From: Pancytospora philotis
Taxonomy: Eukaryota; Microsporidia
Length of the DNA: 29,104 nt
Assembly (NCBI GenBank): GCA_023647555.1
Contig: JALRLY010000226.1
Span: 1-29,104 of the forward strand
Direction of reading: 5' to 3'
This document shows positions 1 through 29,104 of this stretch, in pieces. The notes below the pieces were generated by a model. It made no database searches and was not told the DNA's origin. It saw only the letters and a program-made list of their open reading frames with translations. The translations under genes were made by a program, and so were the position numbers. The first letter of the stretch is position 1. Each line of letters opens with the position of its first letter.

Positions 1-326
1 TGGAGTACACGGGCGAGATCCTCTCGGAGAAGGAGACCGAGCGGCGCGGCAACTTCTACGAGATCAACAAGTGCTCGTACCTGTTCAACTTCGCGACCAA
101 GAACGGCGAGTCGCACCTCTCGGTCGACGCATTCTACATCGGCAGCAAGAGCCGTTACATCAACCACTCCACGTCGCACGCGAACCTGCGCTCGGAGGTG
201 TTCGTGTCGAGCGGCGTCCAGCACATTGTGTTCTACGCCACCCGCGACATCTACCCTGGCGACGAGCTGCTGTTTGACTACCACTTCACGGACGAGCACA
301 AGCTGAAGCACGGAATACTGGACTAG
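1..326 (+). CDS. Histone-lysine N-methyltransferase, E(z)-type SET domain (3' part only)
   Basis: The reading frame is open from the window edge (first full codon at 3) to TAG at 324-326, giving the last 107 residues. It is a SET domain core: an EYTGE start, an ERRG..YE....CSYLFN stretch, the RYINHS cofactor/pseudoknot motif and a GDELLFDYHF C-terminal motif. The ERRG-to-CSYLFN stretch closely follows the DRRG..YD...CSFLFN of Enhancer of zeste (EZH2, KMT6) rather than SUV39 or SET1 families, and no post-SET cysteine cluster follows, which also fits E(z). Family members methylate H3K27 in the nucleus as the catalytic subunit of PRC2. The CXC/pre-SET part lies outside the window, so subfamily is inferred from SET residues alone. 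An EED-like gene lies 3.4 kb downstream. Confidence 0.85.
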   Translation, partial: EYTGEILSEKETERRGNFYEINKCSYLFNFATKNGESHLSVDAFYIGSKSRYINHSTSHANLRSEVFVSSGVQHIVFYATRDIYPGDELLFDYHFTDEHKLKHGILD

Positions 327-533
327 CTGGGCGGTGCGTATGCAATCCAAAGCTATGCGGGTTATTGTGTGGCCTGCCTCGTATCGTAGCAATGCATGCT
401 GATATATCGCGCGCGCCATGAACTGCTACCGGTACAGTGACGCTTTGTGTTTAAGCTGAGCAATAAACAGATGTTTAATAATAATGTGTTGGCTTTACTC
501 GGTGTTCGCTCAGTATATTTTTATCAGGCTAAT
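327..533. other. Intergenic stretch between SET gene and transposon
   Basis: No gene seen. AATAAA occurs near 460 and could serve the SET gene as a poly(A) signal. A short open frame reading into the transposon from 447 begins with GTG and is flank plus inverted repeat rather than a gene. Confidence 0.4.
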
Positions 534-537
534 GTCC

Positions 538-592
538 CCATTAGCTGGGCAAATTTGCCTTTTGAGCAAAATTTTGAAAAAAGAACCTTGAA
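538..592 (+). repeat. Left terminal inverted repeat of the Merlin-like element
   Basis: 55 bp, matching the reverse complement of 1502-1556 with about seven differences, including an uninterrupted 22-bp match (GCAAAATTTTG core, 566-587). The AAAATTTT core lies about 25 bp upstream of the transposase ATG at 600. Confidence 0.9.
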
Positions 593-599
593 AACTTTG

Positions 600-1435
600 A
601 TGGTGCGTCTAGACTACAGTGATGAGAGAAAGATCCTGAGTCAGATTGTAATGCAGGTCGAGCTGAAGTGCGATAGATGCGGGAACGAAGCCCGGCTAGA
701 TAATAATAAGGATGATTATCTTATTTGATGCTCTAGGAGACTGTGCAACTATGCGCATTCAGTGTAGAAAGGTACAGCGCTTGAGGAATCTAGGATTCCT
801 AAAGAGCAAACACTTGGGATTTTAGATCTGTGGATGGGCTTAGCGCCCACAAAGCTCATATGCCGATTGGTGGGCATTAACAGGAAAGCAGTACATCGTC
901 TGCTACGCAAAGTATCACGCATCGCTGTCCCGCGGTATTACGAGCGGGTTGGGCAGATCGGCGGGCCCGTGGTGGTGGTCGAGGTAGACGAGTCGAAGTT
1001 CGGCAAGCGTAAGTTCAACCGCGGGCACAGGGTGGAAGGCACTTGGGTGCTCGGTGCTGTCGAGAAGGCAAGCACGCGGCGGATCATGATCATTATGCTG
1101 CTTATAGAGAACCGCCCCAAGGAAACACTGCTTGGCCAGCTTGCAAAGTACGTCCATCCCGAATCGCGCATGCGGTCAGACATGTAGAGAGGTTACATAG
1201 AAGCTGCAGAACTATTCGCTACAATGAAACCGTTAACCATAGCCTTTTCTTCAAAGATCCTGTAACTGGTGTGCACACGAACACTATTGAAGGAAATTGG
1301 GCAGCAGTAAAGGCGCAGACACCGGTTCGCTCCCGAACTCGAAGCCTTGCCTGGCTATATTTGCTCAGGTTCATGCTTAAAAGAGAATATACAAAGACTC
1401 ATACTGACAAATTAATTAAATTAGTCTTACCTTAG
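600..1435 (+). pseudogene. ISXO2-like (IS1595/Merlin) transposase, inactivated
   Basis: One frame from ATG 600 carries a CxxC zinc-ribbon start (KCDRCGNEA), a helix-turn-helix-like region and the first catalytic Asp (VEVDESKFG), then the second (MRSDM). It is interrupted by in-frame stops at 726-728, 765-767 and 1185-1187. Comparison with the two other copies in this window shows that the first and third stops replace tryptophan (FVWKC/YVWEC and SDMWR). After about 1227-1233 the frame shifts and the rest (VNHS, then GVHTNTIEGNW with the catalytic Glu) continues to TAG at 1433-1435. Family members cut and paste the element through an RNase-H-fold DDE active site. Four lesions make this copy non-functional. 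Confidence 0.9.
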
Positions 1436-1501
1436 TATTTATTTAGATGCTTATAACCTCTATCACGCTCTGTTACCGATACCGATCTCCCGCCAAAAAA
1501 A

Positions 1502-1556
1502 TTCAGGGTTCTTTTTTCAAAATTTTGCATAAAAGGCGATTTTGCTCAGCTAATGG
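1502..1556 (-). repeat. Right terminal inverted repeat of the Merlin-like element
   Basis: Inverted partner of 538-592. On the plus strand it is open in frame with the downstream DOA1 gene, so a naive ORF starting at 1447 carries 55 false N-terminal residues encoded by repeat and flank. Confidence 0.9.
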
Positions 1557-1611
1557 TCCCAAACTCCTTTTTGTCATCTGCGCCGCCAAAAAAATCGCAA
1601 TCGGACGCCCT

Positions 1612-3381
1612 ATGCTGCATCTGGAGGGAAAGAAGGAGCTGAAGAAGGGCGCGATCAAGAAAATAGCGCGCGACCCGCTGGCGGCCGCCTGCGAGAAGAA
1701 CCTGGTCTGCCTGGTCGACGGAGACGGCTCGATTGCGACGGACAGCATGGTCAACTCCGTGGCCGCGTGGAACGGGGAGCTGTGGGCTGGCACGCAGAAC
1801 GGCAAGGTGCTGCGGCGCGTCGGCGAGTCCTTTGAGCAGGTGTACATGCACAGCGCCAACGTGTGCTGCCTGGAGCTGGGCGATACGTGCGCGCTCAGCG
1901 GCTCCTGGGACCACGAGGCGATCTTGTACCGATACAGCAGCGAGAAAAAGTATCCCGGCGAGGACGGGAACACGGTGGTGCTGCTGAGCCCTGAGCAGGG
2001 CGCGCAGAACGCGATGGTGAAGCGCTCGTACAGGCACCCCGGCTCTGTGTGGTGCGTGGCGCTGCTGAACGACAACAGCAGCAGCGGCTACGATGCCGTG
2101 CAGTTTGTTACGGGCTGCGCGGACGGCAAGATCCGGCACTTCGATGCGAGCGGGCAGCGGAGAGAGCTGGCGTTCCACAGGTCGCCGGTCCGCGGGCTCT
2201 TTGTCAACGGAGACGTGGTGTACAGCGTGGAAAACCACGGGCGGGTGCACAGGACGACGCTCGGCGGCGTGCTGCTCGGCGCCAGGTCGCTGGGCACGTT
2301 CATGTACTGCATATGCCGCTACCAGGACAACATCGCAGTCGGCGGCGAGGATGGCGTCGTGTATCTGCTGAACAGAGATCTGGAGGTGCTCTGCAAGGCT
2401 AAGGCGCCATGCTCTACGATCTGGGACATCAAAGAGCACGAGGGCGCCCTCATCGCATGCGGGTCCGATGGGGTGCTGTACACCTATGGCAGCGGCAGCG
2501 CGGAGCCGGGCGCTGATTCCCAGACGAGCGCGAGCTCAGAAAAGGCCGAGGCGTCTGAGGAAGCGCCGCCTGCCGATGAGAAGAGCGAGAAGCCGAAAGA
2601 CGGCATCTTCGAGAGCGGCGGCGTCAGATACAAGATCGAGGGCGGCGATGTCTACGTTGATAAAAACAGCAAGTGGGAGCTGATGGGCTCGGCGCAGAAG
2701 AAATACGATCATACGATTCCTGTGGAGTTCGGGGACAAGAGCTACACGCTGTCCTTCAACGACAAGGACAATGTGCACGAGGTGGCCAAGCGCTTCCTGC
2801 ACGAGCACAAGCTCGACTCCCAGTTCCACGACGACATCGTCGACCACATCCAGAAAAACTTCAAGAGCCTGACTGTCTACAAGAAACACACGGGCATAGA
2901 CCTGAAGGGCATCCGCAAGGTGCTCGGCGAGCATCCTGTCGTGCCGCTGCTCGAGCAAGTGGCCGCCTCGACGCCCTTCTCGCTTGTCAAGAGCGACAGC
3001 CCCAGCATCTACGACATTGAGGACGAGCTGTTTGATCACCGGGCGCGCAAGGAAGCATCCACGAGCGAGGACGCTGCGGATGCCAACGATAATTACCGCG
3101 TGCCCGACCCGGACATCCCGCTCTTTGCGTTCTTTGACATCCTCAAGTTCCTGGTGGGCAACGGCCTGGCGATCGACGTGGCGTGCATTTTCCGCTGCAA
3201 GATCGCCGTGCCCAAGGAGGCAAAGGCCTTTGCGCTCCTGATGACCAACCTTGTTGCCGATTCACCGTTCGAGCTTGCCGCGCTGGACCTGAAGATCAAG
3301 CAGCTGCGCGACGCGCGGCTGCTGACCGACGACGACATCCATCACTATGAAGAGAACAAGAAAATTGCAAGGAAGAAGTAA
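1612..3381 (+). CDS. DOA1: DOA1/PLAA-like ubiquitin-binding WD40 protein
   Basis: 589 residues from the ATG at 1612, chosen because the longer frame from 1447 runs through a transposon repeat. Residues 1-295 form WD40-type blades (GTQNGKVLR, SGSWDHEAILY, TGCADGKIRHFD, VGGEDGVVYLL, ACGSDGVLYTY). A charged low-complexity linker follows (296-330), then a PFU domain (about 330-415, with YDHTIPVEF and a DNVHEVAKRFL segment). The C-terminus (about 435-589) is helical and could be a shortened PUL domain. DOA1/UFD3/PLAA binds ubiquitin through PFU and Cdc48/p97 through PUL, acting in ubiquitin recycling and ribophagy. Yeast Doa1 is about 715 residues, so this one is compact. A Merlin element sits just upstream and may have affected its promoter. 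Confidence 0.85.
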   Translation: MLHLEGKKELKKGAIKKIARDPLAAACEKNLVCLVDGDGSIATDSMVNSVAAWNGELWAGTQNGKVLRRVGESFEQVYMHSANVCCLELGDTCALSGSWDHEAILYRYSSEKKYPGEDGNTVVLLSPEQGAQNAMVKRSYRHPGSVWCVALLNDNSSSGYDAVQFVTGCADGKIRHFDASGQRRELAFHRSPVRGLFVNGDVVYSVENHGRVHRTTLGGVLLGARSLGTFMYCICRYQDNIAVGGEDGVVYLLNRDLEVLCKAKAPCSTIWDIKEHEGALIACGSDGVLYTYGSGSAEPGADSQTSASSEKAEASEEAPPADEKSEKPKDGIFESGGVRYKIEGGDVYVDKNSKWELMGSAQKKYDHTIPVEFGDKSYTLSFNDKDNVHEVAKRFLHEHKLDSQFHDDIVDHIQKNFKSLTVYKKHTGIDLKGIRKVLGEHPVVPLLEQVAASTPFSLVKSDSPSIYDIEDELFDHRARKEASTSEDAADANDNYRVPDPDIPLFAFFDILKFLVGNGLAIDVACIFRCKIAVPKEAKAFALLMTNLVADSPFELAALDLKIKQLRDARLLTDDDIHHYEENKKIARKK

Positions 3382-3518
3382 ATTGTTTGCGTCGCACTGT
3401 TTTGATTCTCTGCTGTTATGGCTTGCCCCAGCAGTATCACAACCCGAGACTTACTAGGCCGCTGGGCCGAGCCCATGGTCGCTCTAGCCGTCAGAATCTG
3501 CTTCTGATTATAGAATAA

Positions 3519-3589
3519 GCGTCATTGGTTTAGTGGTATAATAGTGGGTTGCCATCCTGCAGACACGGGTTCGATTCCCGTATGACGCA
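3519..3589 (+). tRNA. tRNA-Gly (GCC)
   Basis: A 71-nt cloverleaf: acceptor arms GCGTCAT and ATGACGC, D arm with AGTGGTA, anticodon loop TTGCCAT (anticodon GCC), and T loop TTCGATT within the B box GGTTCGATTCC. A T-run follows at 3590-3594 as a Pol III terminator. No intron. Confidence 0.95.
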
Positions 3590-3682
3590 TTTTTGCTTTT
3601 GCCCAAATGGCGTATCGCGGCTGCGAAAAGGCTTAAGAAACAGTGGTCCGCAACTGGTGATTTACTGATGCTGGGGCGGCGA

Positions 3683-4861
3683 TCACAGATCCATCCCGCT
3701 CTCGATGCGCTGGACGTCGAGCGCCATCGAGTGCAGCTCGCCGCCCGTGGTGACGTAGATCCGATCGCTCAGCAGCAGAAAGTCCTCTGCTCTGGCAAGC
3801 CGCGTCTCCACGATGAGCGGCGTCTCGGCGCGGGAGAGGCGCCGCAGGTCATACAGGTAGATGTCGCCCTCCCTGCTGATGCCCGCCAGAATATGCCGCT
3901 CAATCGCGATGGTCTTGCAGCTCTTCGGGAAGCTGATCTTGCCGATGTAGAGCGGCTGGTCGCCCGCGAGCTGCATGCCCCGCTGCGAGAGGAGCGGCTC
4001 GGCGAGCTTATCGAGGTCCATGTTATTGTAGATCGCGAGCACGGTGTTGTTGCACAGGCTAAGAACGATATCGCCGTAGTAGAGCACCTTCGTGATGGCC
4101 GACCGGTGGATGCCTGTGAAGTTCTGGCTCGGCTTGTGGTAGAAGCTCTCTGCGCCGCTGCTGTTCGGCTCCAGCGACACGCGCCACTGCTTGATCGTGG
4201 AGTCCGTGCCGGTGCTCGCGATCAGCGCGCGGCTGTGGTGGACATCGATGCTCAGGATGTGGTCGCGGTGGCTCATCAGCCCGCCGATCACGCCGATCGG
4301 GCTGTAGGTCCTGATATCCCACAGCCTGATTGTGCTGTCCTCGCTGCAGCTCACAACCGTGCTGCCCACGACCTTCAGGTCATAGACGCAGCCGGTGTGG
4401 CCCTTCAGGTATCCCTCCACCAACCCGCTGTTGAGGTTCAGAATCTTGATGATTCCGGTTTCGCCCGCCACACACAGCAGATTCTTGACTGCAGCATCTT
4501 CATAGCTGTGCGCGGATGCTGAGTCAGCGCTCGCTGACGATGGCGAGGATGCGGCAGTCTGCACAGACCCCCGTTCATTTTCTGGAATGATGCACTCAGT
4601 TCCTGACGCTGCGCTGTAAGTGTGCACAGAGGCCGGCCTGGACTCGACTGATTTGCCTGCTGGCCCGCCAGTCCCCACATCCGCAAACGCGCAGCAGTAG
4701 AATTTCTCGTTCTTATTGGCGTCCAGATACCGCTGCACGATCTCCAGCTCCAGGCTGAGCACCACGCAGGAGCGCGAGCCCACCGCGGCTATGATGCCGA
4801 GCTCTCTGTGCGCCTTCATCGAGCCGAGCCACATGTTCTGCAGTGTCTTCGTGATCGCCAT
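3683..4861 (-). CDS. EED/Esc-like WD40 protein (putative PRC2 subunit)
   Basis: 392 residues from the ATG at 4861; a longer frame exists from 4993, but an AAATTTTG box lies immediately upstream of 4861. WD40 blades follow EED in order: LLCVAGETGIIKILN (about 128-142; EED has a GIIRIIN strand), CSEDSTIRLWDIRT (172-185), then IGGLMSHRDHILSIDV (192-207), matching the EED FGG..GHRDEVLS signature, STGTDSTIKQW (216-226), and IHRSAITKVLYYGDIVLS (251-268), matching the EED IHR....V...GD.ILS blade. A Ser-rich insertion lies at about 65-125. EED binds H3K27me3 through an aromatic cage and activates E(z). Other WD40 families are possible, but the run of matches is specific. The E(z)-like SET gene upstream strengthens the call. 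Confidence 0.82.
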   Translation of the reverse strand: MAITKTLQNMWLGSMKAHRELGIIAAVGSRSCVVLSLELEIVQRYLDANKNEKFYCCAFADVGTGGPAGKSVESRPASVHTYSAASGTECIIPENERGSVQTAASSPSSASADSASAHSYEDAAVKNLLCVAGETGIIKILNLNSGLVEGYLKGHTGCVYDLKVVGSTVVSCSEDSTIRLWDIRTYSPIGVIGGLMSHRDHILSIDVHHSRALIASTGTDSTIKQWRVSLEPNSSGAESFYHKPSQNFTGIHRSAITKVLYYGDIVLSLCNNTVLAIYNNMDLDKLAEPLLSQRGMQLAGDQPLYIGKISFPKSCKTIAIERHILAGISREGDIYLYDLRRLSRAETPLIVETRLARAEDFLLLSDRIYVTTGGELHSMALDVQRIESGMDL

Positions 4862-4879: not shown

Positions 4880-5140
4880 GCGTCTGCTTGTTCTGCTATA
4901 GTGAAATGGCGTATGGTAGTTTTGGCATATAGGCTCTGCTGTTACTGTCTGATCGCCAAGGCCTTTGCTACTGTTTGCAATCTTCCTCGGCAATAAGCCA
5001 TAAACGCGTCAGCAGTTTTAATTGCCCATCTATGAATTAATAGCAGTTCATCCGCCTAGGCATCTTGAATTGTAAATCTGCTACACAATACGCACACACC
5101 CCTTTACGTCTATCAATACCCGTTATTAACACATTTATTT

Positions 5141-8100
5141 CTATAGAATGTCCAGCAACTCTTTCAGCACTGGAACGGTGAGCATGTTGGCGCGGTTGCC
5201 GATGAGCACCAGCTGCTTCCGCGCGCGGGTTAGCGCGACATTCAGCCGCTCGCGACTGCTCAGCACCTCGCAGCTGACCACCGGGTCGAACACGACGGCG
5301 ACGCAGTCGCTCTCGCTCCCCTGGAAGCGGTCGACAGTCGTGGTGTGGTGCTGGGTCACCGCCTTCGCGTCTTTTACCGTGGCGTTTAGGTAGCAGAGAA
5401 TCACGCAGGGCGGCAGCGTTGCGACGATGTCCCTGTAGGAGGCCCCTGCTGTGTCGATGAACAGGACCGGCGCGTCGTACGGGATGCCTCTGCCTGCGGC
5501 GGCGTATTCAGCGAATGATATGCACAGCGCCTTTTCAGCCTCAACGGCAGAACTGCCTGCGTTGCCGTTTACGAGCCGGCCGCCGTAGAACAGCGTGTTG
5601 CTCAGGCGCATGATGCTGTCCACCATCCGGTACTGCTGGGCGAGCACCGAGCAGCCGTCCATCAGATGCTCGAAGATGCTCAGCTCCATCTGGCGGCTGT
5701 GCTTGGCGAGCGGCTTCAGCTGCAGATGGTCGCCCACCACGCAGAAGCGGGCGGAGAGCGAGATGGGGATGAGCGCAAGCAGCAGATGCATCTGCGAGCC
5801 CTCGTCGATAATGCAGTAGTCGAAGCGCCGCTCGATAAACACCGGGTCGCCGAAGCAGAAGCAGGTTCCGAATACTGCGGATGCTGCTGTGACCCTCTCT
5901 CTGAAGGAAGTCTTCGGCTTCGCGTCTGCATAGTTCGCGCGGTAGCACTCGAGGCTGCCGAGCTTTTTGATGATGTTCTCGATGGCGAAGTGCGTGTAGC
6001 AGATAGTGAGCACCCGCTTGCCGTAGTGGCGCAGGATCTTTATGAGCAGGGCGATCAGCGTGCTCTTGCCGGTGCCAGGCATCCCGTGCACGATGCGGTA
6101 GCTCTCGCAGTTAAGCGCGTAGAACAGCGCTCTCTGCTGGTCCGTGTTCAGCGCCAGGAAGTCATCCTTGAACAGATCGGGAATGGGGAGAGCAAAGCGC
6201 GGGCTCTGCAGGCGCAAAGAAGACTCCAGGAATGACTCGGTCGGCACGTCCGCATGGAGCATAAAGCCGGGCTTCTCGGTAGACGCGCTTTCGCCAAAGC
6301 TGCTGGCAGCCCCGGGCTTCTTGTTGTAGAGCCGCTCATCTAAGAACGAATACCCGGAATTAGACGGTGCGGAGCGAATGGCAGATCCGATGGACGATTT
6401 TGGCTCCATTGCGGGCGCAGGGGCTTTGCCGGTCTCTTCCTTCTCCGAGGCGCATCCGATGCTGCTCAGCTCGATATCGGGAGAGCTGTCGAGCAGGTTG
6501 GACGGCAGATGCTCCGCGCCCTCAAAGCTGCATATCGTCTCAAGCTCGTCTGACTGCGGCGACCCCGAGGCGAACAGGCTTTCGGAGATATCGCAAATGC
6601 TGGCGCTCTGCAGCGACGAGGCGTCCAGTGTGAAGTTGGACCCGAGGCTGCAGCAGCTGGATTCCTCTTCGCATTTTTCTGCAAGAAGCGCCTCATTGAG
6701 CGGCTGTGCAGCGGCAGCAGCGAGGCTGCGACGGTGCTGCTCCTCTCCAGGCAGCGTGAAGGCACTGAGCGCGCCGCAGCCCTCACCGCGGTAGTATTTT
6801 GGATACGCCAGACTGATCAGGGACCACCGCAGGTACTTGTAGAACACCTCGCACCGCTCCGTGCTGATGTACACCATCCGCTCCACGCTGATGCCATCGC
6901 GCAGCCGCACGGACATGCGCGGGCCATCAACGCTCTCCACCGTGCCGTGTGTGAGCAGCTTGCGCGTGCGGCTGTATATGCTCACGTAGTCAGCAGACAC
7001 CGCATCATCGGTGAGCCGCAGCACCGCCACGCCATTTTTAATATCCGTCACAATCGCCTTCGTAAACTTGAGCTCACCGACGTACTCGCTCTCGATACCA
7101 TCCAGCTGCTTCCGAAGGAAGTGCGTCTCGGGCAGCTGCATCAGCCTTCTGTATACGCTGCACGGCATGTTCTCCGCGCACAGACAGTCACTTACGCTGC
7201 TCCGCGCAGCAACCTTATTGCGCAGCTGGAGAAGCGCGGCGATCTCGCTGTACTTCATGCACGGGCTGAGCATCTCCTCGGAGCACAGGTAGTAGAGGTA
7301 CGGCCGGTACACATTGTGGCGTTGGCCTGCGTTGCCATCATCAGCGCCTTTATTTTTTTGGTGCACAGCGCCGCTGAGAGTGCGCACCGTATTAATATTG
7401 TCTATCAGGTCGGCCCGGTGCGGATGCCCGCGGCCGCTGTCGAGCCGCCCCTCGCGCTCCAGCATCAGCAGCGTGTAGAGCAGCACCTGGGCACGGTGCG
7501 CAACCTGCGGGCGCTTGCCAGTCTTGAACTCGATGACCCGCCCAGGCCCGTAGCAGTCGATGCTCCCCTTCAGGCCGATGTCGCAGGAGAAGATGCCCTG
7601 CTCCACGGCGGAGATCTCGATGCCCTTTCCCACAAACGCAGCGACGTAGCGCGCAGCGCCGAGCACCTCGTTCAGTAGCTCCTTCTCGAGCACGTTGCAG
7701 GCGTAGGCGAGCCTCTCGTGCTTCTCGATGATCGCGCGGGCATTCGTTGTGATGAACTTGGCATCGCAGCGCCCCTCCACCAGGCAGATCTGCAGCAGCT
7801 CGTGCATCACCACGCCGAAGACGAGCGCGCGGTTCGCGTAGCTGAACGAGATATCAGCAACCAGCCTGTTCACCAGCGGGGAGTTCTCGCACATCAGCGC
7901 GCTGCAGAAGTTGGTAACCGTAAGCATGTGGTCCTCGATGAGCACGGCGTTCCGCGTATCGTCAATCATGAACACGTGGCTGCCCTGGCTCGTGTCCGGC
8001 GAGCCGTTGCATCCCGGCCATCCGTCCTGCTGCAGCGATTCGTCCGTCAGATTGTCGAACACACGGACGCGCATCCCAACGGCGAAATCGCACTCGGCCC

Positions 8101-8362
8101 ACGCGCCCGACAGGACCACGCGGGAGCGGCGCCCGACTAGCACCTTCGACCCGTCCCTGGTCTCCACGCCGCGGACCACGAAGCGGTGGAGCGTGTCGGA
8201 GGGCTCCAGAATGTCCTCCTCGATCTGGAAGGGCGACGCCTCGTCCCAGAACGCGACCTTTGACGGCGCCCGCGCAACGTCCATCTCCACGCCCGCGTAC
8301 GTCTTCTTCTGGGACGACACCCACTGGACGTCCGGCTGAGAAAAATCTGAGTCCGCTCCCAT
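5141..8362 (-). CDS. DNA2: DNA2 nuclease-helicase
   Basis: 1073 residues. The N-terminal half is the RecB-like nuclease of Dna2: H187 (VMHELLQ), D269 (GLKGSID), E278/K280 (IEFKTGK) and Q292/Y296 (RAQVLLYTL). A 4Fe-4S cysteine set fits C153 or C158 plus C393, C395 and C401. Residues 725-1073 are a superfamily 1B helicase: Walker A GMPGTGKST (760-768), IIDEGSQ (851-857), GDHLQLKP (877-884), QYRM (910-913), DRFQGSESD (1011-1019) and RERLNVALTRAR (1038-1049). Dna2 trims long Okazaki flaps and resects double-strand breaks. A Ser/Glu-rich, probably disordered segment (about 560-720) separates the two enzymes. The length is close to human DNA2 (about 1060). AATAAA overlaps the region just after the TAG stop. 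Confidence 0.95.
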   Translation of the reverse strand: MGADSDFSQPDVQWVSSQKKTYAGVEMDVARAPSKVAFWDEASPFQIEEDILEPSDTLHRFVVRGVETRDGSKVLVGRRSRVVLSGAWAECDFAVGMRVRVFDNLTDESLQQDGWPGCNGSPDTSQGSHVFMIDDTRNAVLIEDHMLTVTNFCSALMCENSPLVNRLVADISFSYANRALVFGVVMHELLQICLVEGRCDAKFITTNARAIIEKHERLAYACNVLEKELLNEVLGAARYVAAFVGKGIEISAVEQGIFSCDIGLKGSIDCYGPGRVIEFKTGKRPQVAHRAQVLLYTLLMLEREGRLDSGRGHPHRADLIDNINTVRTLSGAVHQKNKGADDGNAGQRHNVYRPYLYYLCSEEMLSPCMKYSEIAALLQLRNKVAARSSVSDCLCAENMPCSVYRRLMQLPETHFLRKQLDGIESEYVGELKFTKAIVTDIKNGVAVLRLTDDAVSADYVSIYSRTRKLLTHGTVESVDGPRMSVRLRDGISVERMVYISTERCEVFYKYLRWSLISLAYPKYYRGEGCGALSAFTLPGEEQHRRSLAAAAAQPLNEALLAEKCEEESSCCSLGSNFTLDASSLQSASICDISESLFASGSPQSDELETICSFEGAEHLPSNLLDSSPDIELSSIGCASEKEETGKAPAPAMEPKSSIGSAIRSAPSNSGYSFLDERLYNKKPGAASSFGESASTEKPGFMLHADVPTESFLESSLRLQSPRFALPIPDLFKDDFLALNTDQQRALFYALNCESYRIVHGMPGTGKSTLIALLIKILRHYGKRVLTICYTHFAIENIIKKLGSLECYRANYADAKPKTSFRERVTAASAVFGTCFCFGDPVFIERRFDYCIIDEGSQMHLLLALIPISLSARFCVVGDHLQLKPLAKHSRQMELSIFEHLMDGCSVLAQQYRMVDSIMRLSNTLFYGGRLVNGNAGSSAVEAEKALCISFAEYAAAGRGIPYDAPVLFIDTAGASYRDIVATLPPCVILCYLNATVKDAKAVTQHHTTTVDRFQGSESDCVAVVFDPVVSCEVLSSRERLNVALTRARKQLVLIGNRANMLTVPVLKELLDIL

Positions 8363-26948: not shown

Positions 26949-27815
26949 TTACTGGTACTGTATACGATCGACCGGGACTTTCAGGGTGATTCCGTGTAGT
27001 TCATTGGGTTCTGCGTGAATGGATCATGAGTATGATGAGTTATACGCGTCGAGAGCAAGCGGAACGGCTCTTTTCCAATTTGTTTCATCGAAGTGAGATA
27101 GTTTGCGCAACTTATTCATAAAGGTCTGGTTAAAACGTTCGATACATCTTTGTGTGCTGGGCTTGTATGGGGATCCATGTTTAAGCTCTATCGAGTGCAT
27201 GATACAGAAGTCATGAAGTGCTTTGTTGCTGAACTCTAATCCATTGTCGGTCAGGATTGTCCTGGGTTTACCCATCACTCAAATCTTATGTTCAGCTGCG
27301 CGATAATTGCTTCGCTTTGCTTATTCCTCATGATCTCAACGTGGGCTCTCTTCGAAAATACGTCGATGATTGTTAGCATGTGCTGGGCGTGTCCGAGTCA
27401 CCCCGGATTGGGCCGATCATGTCCATTTCCCAGAGCTCGTTGACGCTACTGACTTTAATAGGCAAATAGCTGTTCTGCGCATGCTTCTGCTAGATCTTGC
27501 AGCTGGCAACATAACTATTGATCTGCGCATTAGCGTGATCCACGAGTAACGTCTAAGGATCCAGTATTTCATCACTTCTGCGCTTCCGTGGCCTGTTGCT
27601 TTGTGGTACTCCTTCAGTATGCATGGGATATCCGCGAACTGTGGTCGCACTATGTCAGTTCCTTCGCTTGTGATGTGGACCACGTTGCAACTGAATGCTC
27701 TGCTGAGTAAGTCCAAAAAGTTCTCTTCCCCTTCAAGTATTCGAGCTTGAAGTCATAGCCTTGAAAAGCCAGAGCCCATCTCAGTAGGCGTGACGGATCA
27801 AGTGTCACAGACGCC
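26949..27815 (-). pseudogene. Ty3/gypsy retrotransposon pol fragment (RNase H end and integrase), broken
   Basis: Minus-strand pieces in order: RNase H C-terminus (DPSRLLRWALAFQGYDFKLE, YLKGK), then DLLSRAF after a one-base loss at about 27723-27733; integrase zinc-binding region (YHKATGHGSAEVMKYWILRRYSW), another frameshift, CKI-stop-QKHA, then LWEMDMIGP with the first catalytic Asp; a further shift into TIIDVFSKRAHVEI; a final shift into TILTDNGLEFSN (second Asp) and CIERFNQTF (Glu); and a stop inside the C-terminal part before the end at 26949. At least four frameshifts and two stops make it inactive. Reverse transcriptase and gag are missing. Confidence 0.85.
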
Positions 27816-27878
27816 TGACAAATTTTTAGAAGCAAATATTTTACAAAAGTTGTAAGTTTTTTAGGCGAAGCCCTGGAT

Positions 27879-28165
27879 ATGGCAAGCGGTAATGGCATCT
27901 ATAAATCGATAATCGAGCCTATTACGAAAGATCCGCGCCTAGCTATAAATTATTCGATGGATACAGGGGTGCTTCGAAAGACAATGCTATGTTTAGAGTG
28001 CAATGGGCTCATGGTACGCAGTACTCATAAGTTAGGAATGGATGATTTTGTGTGGAAGTGCCACAATAAAGCGTGTGCTAAAATGAAAACAACAAGAAGC
28101 ATTCGTTGTAGCTCTCCATTTGAGGGCCTTAAGGCGTCACTTACGCAACTTATCCAGCGGAGCTT
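27879..28165 (+). pseudogene. ISXO2-like transposase, N-terminal fragment
   Basis: Opens with ATG 27879 and carries the zinc ribbon and adjoining region (LCLECNGLMV ... DDFVWKCHNKACAKMKTTRSIRCSSPFE, then LKASLTQLIQ), which aligns with the neighbouring transposase (CPHCPTYMC ... YVWECRNYECAKYRTTLSVRYGSVF). No catalytic domain follows: the frame runs into the inverted repeat of the next element at 28166 and stops at 28277. This suggests the element was split by insertion of the second one. Confidence 0.8.
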
Positions 28166-28303: not shown

Positions 28304-29104
28304 ATGGTTGTAAGCATGTGGGAAACGCTTTTTGAGCCTTTAGCTAATGCATCACTATTAGAATTGATAAAGCAGCTCCAGAGTCTAAAGTTAATACACG
28401 CTGATATGAAATGTCCACATTGCCCCACCTATATGTGTCTACGCCCCCGTGCCAGCGTTTGTGATAAGTATGTCTGGGAATGCAGAAACTATGAATGCGC
28501 TAAATATCGTACTACTCTTTCAGTGAGGTACGGCTCTGTTTTCAGTAGTAGCAAGGTGAATATGTATCGCCTATTCAAGCTCATTTGTTTGTGGGCAAAA
28601 GAAATATCTATCAATGATGCTCGGCAATTTATAAGCGTTACACGGAAAACTATAGGCGAGATGTATGCGCGACTACGCCAAGTAGTGGTACGAGAAGTCC
28701 GGCGCGAGCCGATTCGCTTAGGTGGCTATGGTGTGCAATGCCAAGTGGATGAGTCGCTTTTCGTTCATAAACAAAAGTACCACGTGGGCCGGGTTGCTGA
28801 AGAGCAGATCTGGGTGTTAGGTATTGCAGATACTAGCAGGAGTCCGTGTTTTGGCTATATGCAGATAGTGGACGACCGCACAGAGGAGACGCTGCTACCA
28901 ATCATCGCGGAGATTTGCAGGCCTGGTACAACGATAGCTTCAGACATGTGGCGCGCATACCTGAATTTGAGCCGCAAATTGGGATTCGAGCATCGGATGG
29001 TTAATCATTTTTTAAACTTCGTGAACCATGTAGATGGCACACATACGCAAGCCATTGAATCACACTGGGCAAATCAGAAATATCGCATCAAAAAAATGAA
29101 AGGT
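28304..29104 (+). CDS. ISXO2-like (IS1595/Merlin) transposase, 3' end beyond window
   Basis: 267 codons, open to the window edge, with an in-frame TAA just before the ATG at 28304 (an ATG four codons on, 28316, is also possible). Zinc ribbon CPHC...VCDKYVWECRNYEC (about 37-70), a helix-turn-helix-like stretch, then the RNase-H-fold catalytic core: CQVDESLF (first Asp, about 147), IASDMWRAY (second Asp) and THTQAIESHW (Glu). No internal stop or frameshift is present, so this copy may be active. An AAAATTTTT box lies at 28277-28284. It moves DNA by cut-and-paste, and serves here as the reference for the lesions in the copy at 600-1435. Confidence 0.93.
   Translation, partial: MVVSMWETLFEPLANASLLELIKQLQSLKLIHADMKCPHCPTYMCLRPRASVCDKYVWECRNYECAKYRTTLSVRYGSVFSSSKVNMYRLFKLICLWAKEISINDARQFISVTRKTIGEMYARLRQVVVREVRREPIRLGGYGVQCQVDESLFVHKQKYHVGRVAEEQIWVLGIADTSRSPCFGYMQIVDDRTEETLLPIIAEICRPGTTIASDMWRAYLNLSRKLGFEHRMVNHFLNFVNHVDGTHTQAIESHWANQKYRIKKMKG

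Follow-up and report, generated by a model that had tools for sequence, protein, structure and literature searches.

Candidate E(z) and EED genes of a PRC2-type histone methyltransferase in the microsporidian Pancytospora philotis

In this study, we analysed a stretch of 29,104 bp from Pancytospora philotis (the window), which is the entire contig C2, with no further sequence to its left, from a 3,680,843-bp assembly comprising 83 contigs. Judging from sequence comparison, two of its genes encode, with a probability of roughly 85%, the catalytic E(z) and the propeller EED of a histone methyltransferase of the Polycomb repressive complex 2 (PRC2) type, most simply inherited vertically in this microsporidian branch. 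Direct support covers the identities and orthology of the genes, their open frames, the presence of the catalytic residues, the K27 lysine in one histone H3 gene, and a p55 gene. The finding is mostly a new example, since the names EZH2, EZ or EED have already been given to the proteins in some microsporidian relatives. The two genes are located as follows:

3..326, plus strand: C-terminal 107 codons of E(z), the SET domain minus its first part; stop codon at 324-326, frame open at window base 1, no post-SET cysteines
3683..4861, minus strand: EED-type WD40 propeller protein of 392 amino acids; ATG at 4861

Identity of the E(z) and EED genes

The first-pass annotation had recognized an E(z)-like SET domain at the left edge of the window by the motifs ERRG, CSYLFN, NHS and FDYHF, all of which are present, and the fragment matched the Pfam SET domain at 2.2e-14. 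The front 401 codons of the gene lie outside the window, as the last frame on contig C14 at its right-hand end, and the protein P0058 ('hypothetical protein PAPHI01_1777, partial', 401 amino acids) has the same size as that frame. The frames are open in both halves. The full protein would comprise about 570-650 amino acids, of which a stretch of about 65-140 (65-138 in 31 relatives) falls between the two contigs. The CXC region, which the annotation had expected further upstream, was located there in part: by alignment, a CXC (pre-SET) cysteine array lies ahead of the SET domain, and the C14 half carries its first part together with a zinc motif of the type we take to be called MCSS (FCTVCCLFSCGIH in P0058), a motif shared by 31 of 34 non-fungal E(z) rows.

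The SET fragment had EZH2 as its best match (1.3e-14), SUV39H2 following directly behind the EZH2 rows (50.1 versus 57.8 bits), and is ambiguous when taken alone. An E(z) profile matched EZH2 at 5e-43, far above SUV39, and in its longest alignments the match to the human EZH2 chains starts at about position 257-283. In addition, the predicted fold of one relative (P0022) was closest to EZH2 and contained a helix at residues 2-36, and full-length alignments begin near EZH2 residue 15-31. As read from sequence, it is the architecture and the profile comparison to EZH2 that settle the E(z) identity. The catalytic motif residues are kept in 33/33 E(z) rows, and none of the 33 rows reaching that site has a cysteine after the FDY tyrosine. 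All 33 microsporidian-type rows also have Asn at the position we take to be Y641 of human EZH2, and Tyr at the F645 position. A natural Y641N was considered as a microsporidian peculiarity and rejected, as Chaetomium has Asn too and three other fungal rows have Lys or Ser.

The WD40 protein is EED on the basis of its predicted fold, which matched EED above other propellers and is intact overall; the three sequence motifs from which the EED type had originally been proposed are present as well. In the PDB, the first 64 EED residues recovered EED only at E 0.18, below an unrelated protein, and the last 165 residues recovered nothing useful. A longer start is possible (TTG at 4993), but in the alignment the relatives start at the ATG or close to it. 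Nine relatives, full or partial, showed 34-48% identity to EED, and 11 relatives of E(z) showed 58-71% identity over the SET fragment; because relatives are conserved in this way, neither frame is a product of chance. An NCBIfam search gave no useful family.

A profile search for E(z) returned 55 proteins, of which we classed 42 as E(z)-like and the remaining 13 as SET proteins of other kinds. Among the E(z)-like proteins, three (one from Sodiomyces) were of the long fungal type by their Pfam domains, two were the P. philotis halves and 37 were others. Seven of these 37 carry species names, namely P. epiphaga, Enteropsectra breve, Enterospora canceri, Ecytonucleospora hepatopenaei, Nucleospora cyclopteri, Glugoides intestinalis and Vittaforma corneae, all of which we take to be Microsporidia; the other 30 are probably microsporidian. 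The names Encephalitozoon, Nosema and Nematocida did not appear among the matches, although the search needs shared short words and their absence is therefore not implied. The E(z) alignment contained 37 rows, after exclusion of the fragments P0024, P0026, P0054, P0057 and P0060 and of the 13 other SET proteins.

Other chromatin genes and the proposed mechanism

The genome yielded two SET-domain matches, E(z) and a SET1/MLL-like protein (L001; 2.5e-27 to MLL), and no SUV39/Clr4-type enzyme was seen in this search. The p55/RbAp48 subunit, one of two partners that the first-pass annotation had proposed to look for in the assembly, is encoded by one gene (L013:1468-2586, PF12265 2.4e-18), although p55-type proteins serve other complexes as well. 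A chromodomain was matched just once genome-wide (1.3e-14), in an HP1-like protein of 147-163 amino acids (L014:1243-1734, contig C38) whose C-terminus also matched the chromo-shadow domain weakly, below the cut-off (0.0017). Six histone-fold matches were obtained, and three loci were read. The H3 at L004:1471-1923 has a canonical-looking tail with SARKTTSE at the K27 position, assigned by alignment to what we take to be canonical H3; ARKS is followed by three additional residues. A second gene, H3-like but divergent in its tail (L003:1465-1890, minus strand), is accompanied by an H4-like frame encoded on the opposite strand (L003:2786-3088, plus strand), and a third H3-like gene (L005:1414-1875) has a divergent tail that keeps ARKS near the N-terminus.

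According to the established PRC2 mechanism, EED would dock the helix at the N-terminus of E(z) and keep the SET domain active. The enzyme, assisted by the p55-type protein, whose gene lies elsewhere, and perhaps by a diverged SUZ12, would then methylate the H3 lysine matching K27 (SARKT), and this methylation would lead to chromatin silencing. For P. philotis, complex formation, methylation and silencing are presumed by analogy. E(z) may be the sole repressive H3 methyltransferase and supply the ligand of HP1; a Polycomb-fed HP1 system is a testable possibility, because E(z) is the only non-SET1 SET enzyme found and an HP1-like protein is still present. A more specific proposal, which is speculative and rather doubtful, is that E(z)-EED is the sole repressive histone methyltransferase left in this branch, a PRC2-type enzyme making trimethyl-lysine (at K27, or at K27 and K9) for the single HP1-like reader, SUZ12 having been lost or replaced and EED acting as a scaffold. 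Methylation of both K27 and K9 is described for Paramecium Ezl1 in the accessible part of PMC6586856. If the proposal were true, two heterochromatin systems would have merged into one, and microsporidian heterochromatin credited to Clr4 and H3K9 may be Polycomb-made.

Contrary evidence and alternative explanations

Several observations weigh against a PRC2-type enzyme, and they concern the domain and propeller searches, the SUZ12 subunit, the main H3, the EED cage and the SET-only tree. First, a search with Pfam preSET_CXC (PF18264) gave no match, without a positive control, and P0058 matched only the related TCR model, weakly (0.017). In sequence searches with the single EED protein or its profile, some propellers of repetitive sequence (the designed Tako8, LIS1 and FBXW7) outranked EED. 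Second, PRC2 normally requires the SUZ12 VEFS box. This second partner sought in the assembly was not recovered, the VEFS model giving 0 matches at E<=10 genome-wide without a positive control, and the Zn_SUZ12 model reached only a sub-threshold zinc finger. The latter was considered as a SUZ12 candidate (L015; PF23320 19.4 bits, cut-off 28) and rejected, since the zinc finger sits at the very end of a 310-amino-acid frame with no room for a VEFS box; PF23320 also matched Bacillus subtilis and Methanocaldococcus jannaschii below its cut-off. The apparent absence of SUZ12 is weak evidence because diverged SUZ12 is often missed, as the accessible parts of PMC10638273 and PMC10538959 point out. 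Third, the main H3 is not settled, as the H4-paired gene (L003) has a divergent tail; in the accessible part of PMC10158259, the main Encephalitozoon H3 was named by its pairing with an H4 gene.

The alternative that survives best, possible yet not favoured, is that E(z) and EED were retained without a read-write loop, EED being a scaffold only and H3K27me3 being read by HP1 or by nothing. The H3K27me3 aromatic cage of EED, poorly conserved by sequence, may be eroded when compared with what we take to be human EED and its cage residues (F97, Y148, W364 and Y365). None of 10 rows has an aromatic pair at W364/Y365, and the window protein has L7 where seven of the eight relatives reaching the site have F and I318 where 9/9 have F, the human counterparts of both being ambiguous, as is the placement of F97 and W364. 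The single HP1-like protein is consistent with such a system, and BAH and JmjC gave 0 matches each in the genome, although without a positive control, so that their absence is not shown. On the other hand, Y148 is kept in 8 of the 9 rows reaching it, the window protein included, the EED fold is intact overall, and the cage residues were paired by sequence profile, not by structure.

A SUV39/Clr4-type H3K9 methyltransferase, with the WD40 protein as its helper or unrelated to it, is a very improbable identity for the SET protein. Besides the second place of SUV39H2 for the SET-only fragment and the HP1-like protein in the genome, this idea draws on Encephalitozoon, for which Clr4 and H3K9me3 are argued in the accessible part of PMC10158259, and on a SET-only tree of 26 rows, including the window fragment and 13 E(z) relatives. 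The tree, to which the first-pass annotation had looked for the placement of E(z), gave a mixed picture: microsporidian-type and fungal E(z) grouped together against the rest (support 95/93), but a short fragment of human EZH2 fell beside SET1 with weak support (81/38), and a grouping of microsporidian E(z) with SUV39 withstood the approximately unbiased test (p 0.199). The same test gave p 0.282 for all E(z) as a single clade and p 0.048 for microsporidian E(z) with SET1. Because the SUV39 grouping was not rejected, the SET domain alone is unsuited as a decider, and the tree was dropped in that role as weak. The CXC and MCSS-like segments, the EED neighbour and the E(z) profile far above SUV39 all argue against a SUV39-type enzyme, as does the lack of post-SET cysteines, a SUV39/Clr4 feature; a genome-wide search for Pre-SET at E<=1 gave 0 matches, but no control genome was matched either, so its absence is not shown. 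Equally improbable is that E(z) has no histone role and is a methyltransferase in decay or one that moonlights. In favour of this, the contigs break inside E(z) and its middle is unread; against it, both halves are open, the catalytic motif residues are complete and the partner EED is kept.

Gene neighbourhood and known systems

The candidate E(z) and EED genes are convergent and about 3.36 kb apart from stop to stop. By our own estimate, the chance of two given genes lying this close in 3.68 Mb is roughly 0.2-0.3%. Gene order in Microsporidia generally changes slowly, so the linkage need not mean co-regulation. An unlabelled EED (P0007) and an unlabelled E(z) (P0027) are both listed with a longest contig of 32,997 bp and may be linked there too. 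The following features lie between the two genes:

834..1435, plus strand: broken IS1595-type transposase look-alike frames, judged by eye, beside E(z); they resemble the frame at 28304-29104
1609..3381, plus strand, open frame from 1447: PFU-domain gene with WD40 and PFU (PLAA/Doa1-type; Pfam PFU 4.4e-11)
3519..3589, plus strand: tRNA-Gly (gcc), between the PFU gene and EED

A Pfam search with the piece 834-1184 gave no match. The frame at 28304-29104 (plus strand) is an IS1595/ISXO2-like transposase (8.3e-12) at the right contig end, and both transposase-like stretches sit close to contig ends. Short frames at 27024-27898 (minus strand) look by eye like pieces of a retroelement integrase and RNase H, and a Dna2-like nuclease-helicase (5141-8362, minus strand; PF08696 2e-16) adjoins EED.

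Compared with the Ezh2-Eed-Suz12 complex of Chaetomium thermophilum, P. philotis likewise has an E(z) with CXC and SET and an EED propeller, and the Asn and Tyr at the Y641 and F645 positions are common to both. In contrast, three fungal E(z) rows measure 1017-1020 amino acids whereas the P. philotis protein is shorter, and fungal PRC2, of which we take Neurospora KMT6/SET-7 to be an example, includes Suz12, which the search without a positive control did not find here. P. philotis H3 also has ARKT at the K27 site instead of ARKS, which we take to be the canonical context. The PRC2 of Cryptococcus reportedly has a chromodomain reader, Ccc1, and the HP1-like protein of P. philotis could read the PRC2 product likewise, no physical link between HP1 and E(z) being known. 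In Cryptococcus, SUZ12 is the diverged Bnd1 (accessible part of PMC10638273) and hard to recognise, as it would be in P. philotis.

Among Microsporidia, the same genes occur as EZH2 in Enteropsectra breve, EZH2 and EED in P. epiphaga, and EZ in Enterospora canceri. The P. epiphaga proteins are 68% (E(z), over the SET fragment) and 46% (EED) identical to those of P. philotis, but their genes lie on two separate contigs of 6.9 and 46 kb, whereas those of P. philotis share one contig about 3.4 kb apart. Encephalitozoon, for which 'Clr4/EZH2', Swi6/HP1 and RBBP4 are listed in PMC10158259, resembles P. philotis in that its reduced genome encodes a SET enzyme together with HP1-like and RBBP4-like proteins; that set, known to us by its labels only, was read as H3K9/Clr4, while our reading of P. 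philotis is E(z)-based. The main text of that paper, as far as accessible, does not mention polycomb or H3K27. Similarly, PMC10393165, which describes P. philotis as a microsporidian of nematodes in the Enterocytozoonida clade, has no mention of histone, chromatin, polycomb, EZH2 or methyltransferase in its accessible main text, and 'microsporid' is not mentioned in the accessible parts of the PRC2 evolution papers PMC8788455 and PMC10638273. In the literature covered, which takes in few subscription journals and was accessible in part, we found no study on PRC2 or the H3K27 mark within a microsporidian itself, apart from a remark on E(z)-type genes in PMC9692433.

Discussions of Polycomb silencing usually centre on its use in multicellular development, and many yeasts have lost it. 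The presence of E(z), EED, p55 and a K27-bearing H3 in a genome of 3.68 Mb, in which no other repressive H3 methyltransferase was seen, suggests that the mark has an indispensable job in such a parasite, for example in subtelomeric or transposon silencing. Whether microsporidian heterochromatin is H3K9- or H3K27-based can be put to a direct test.
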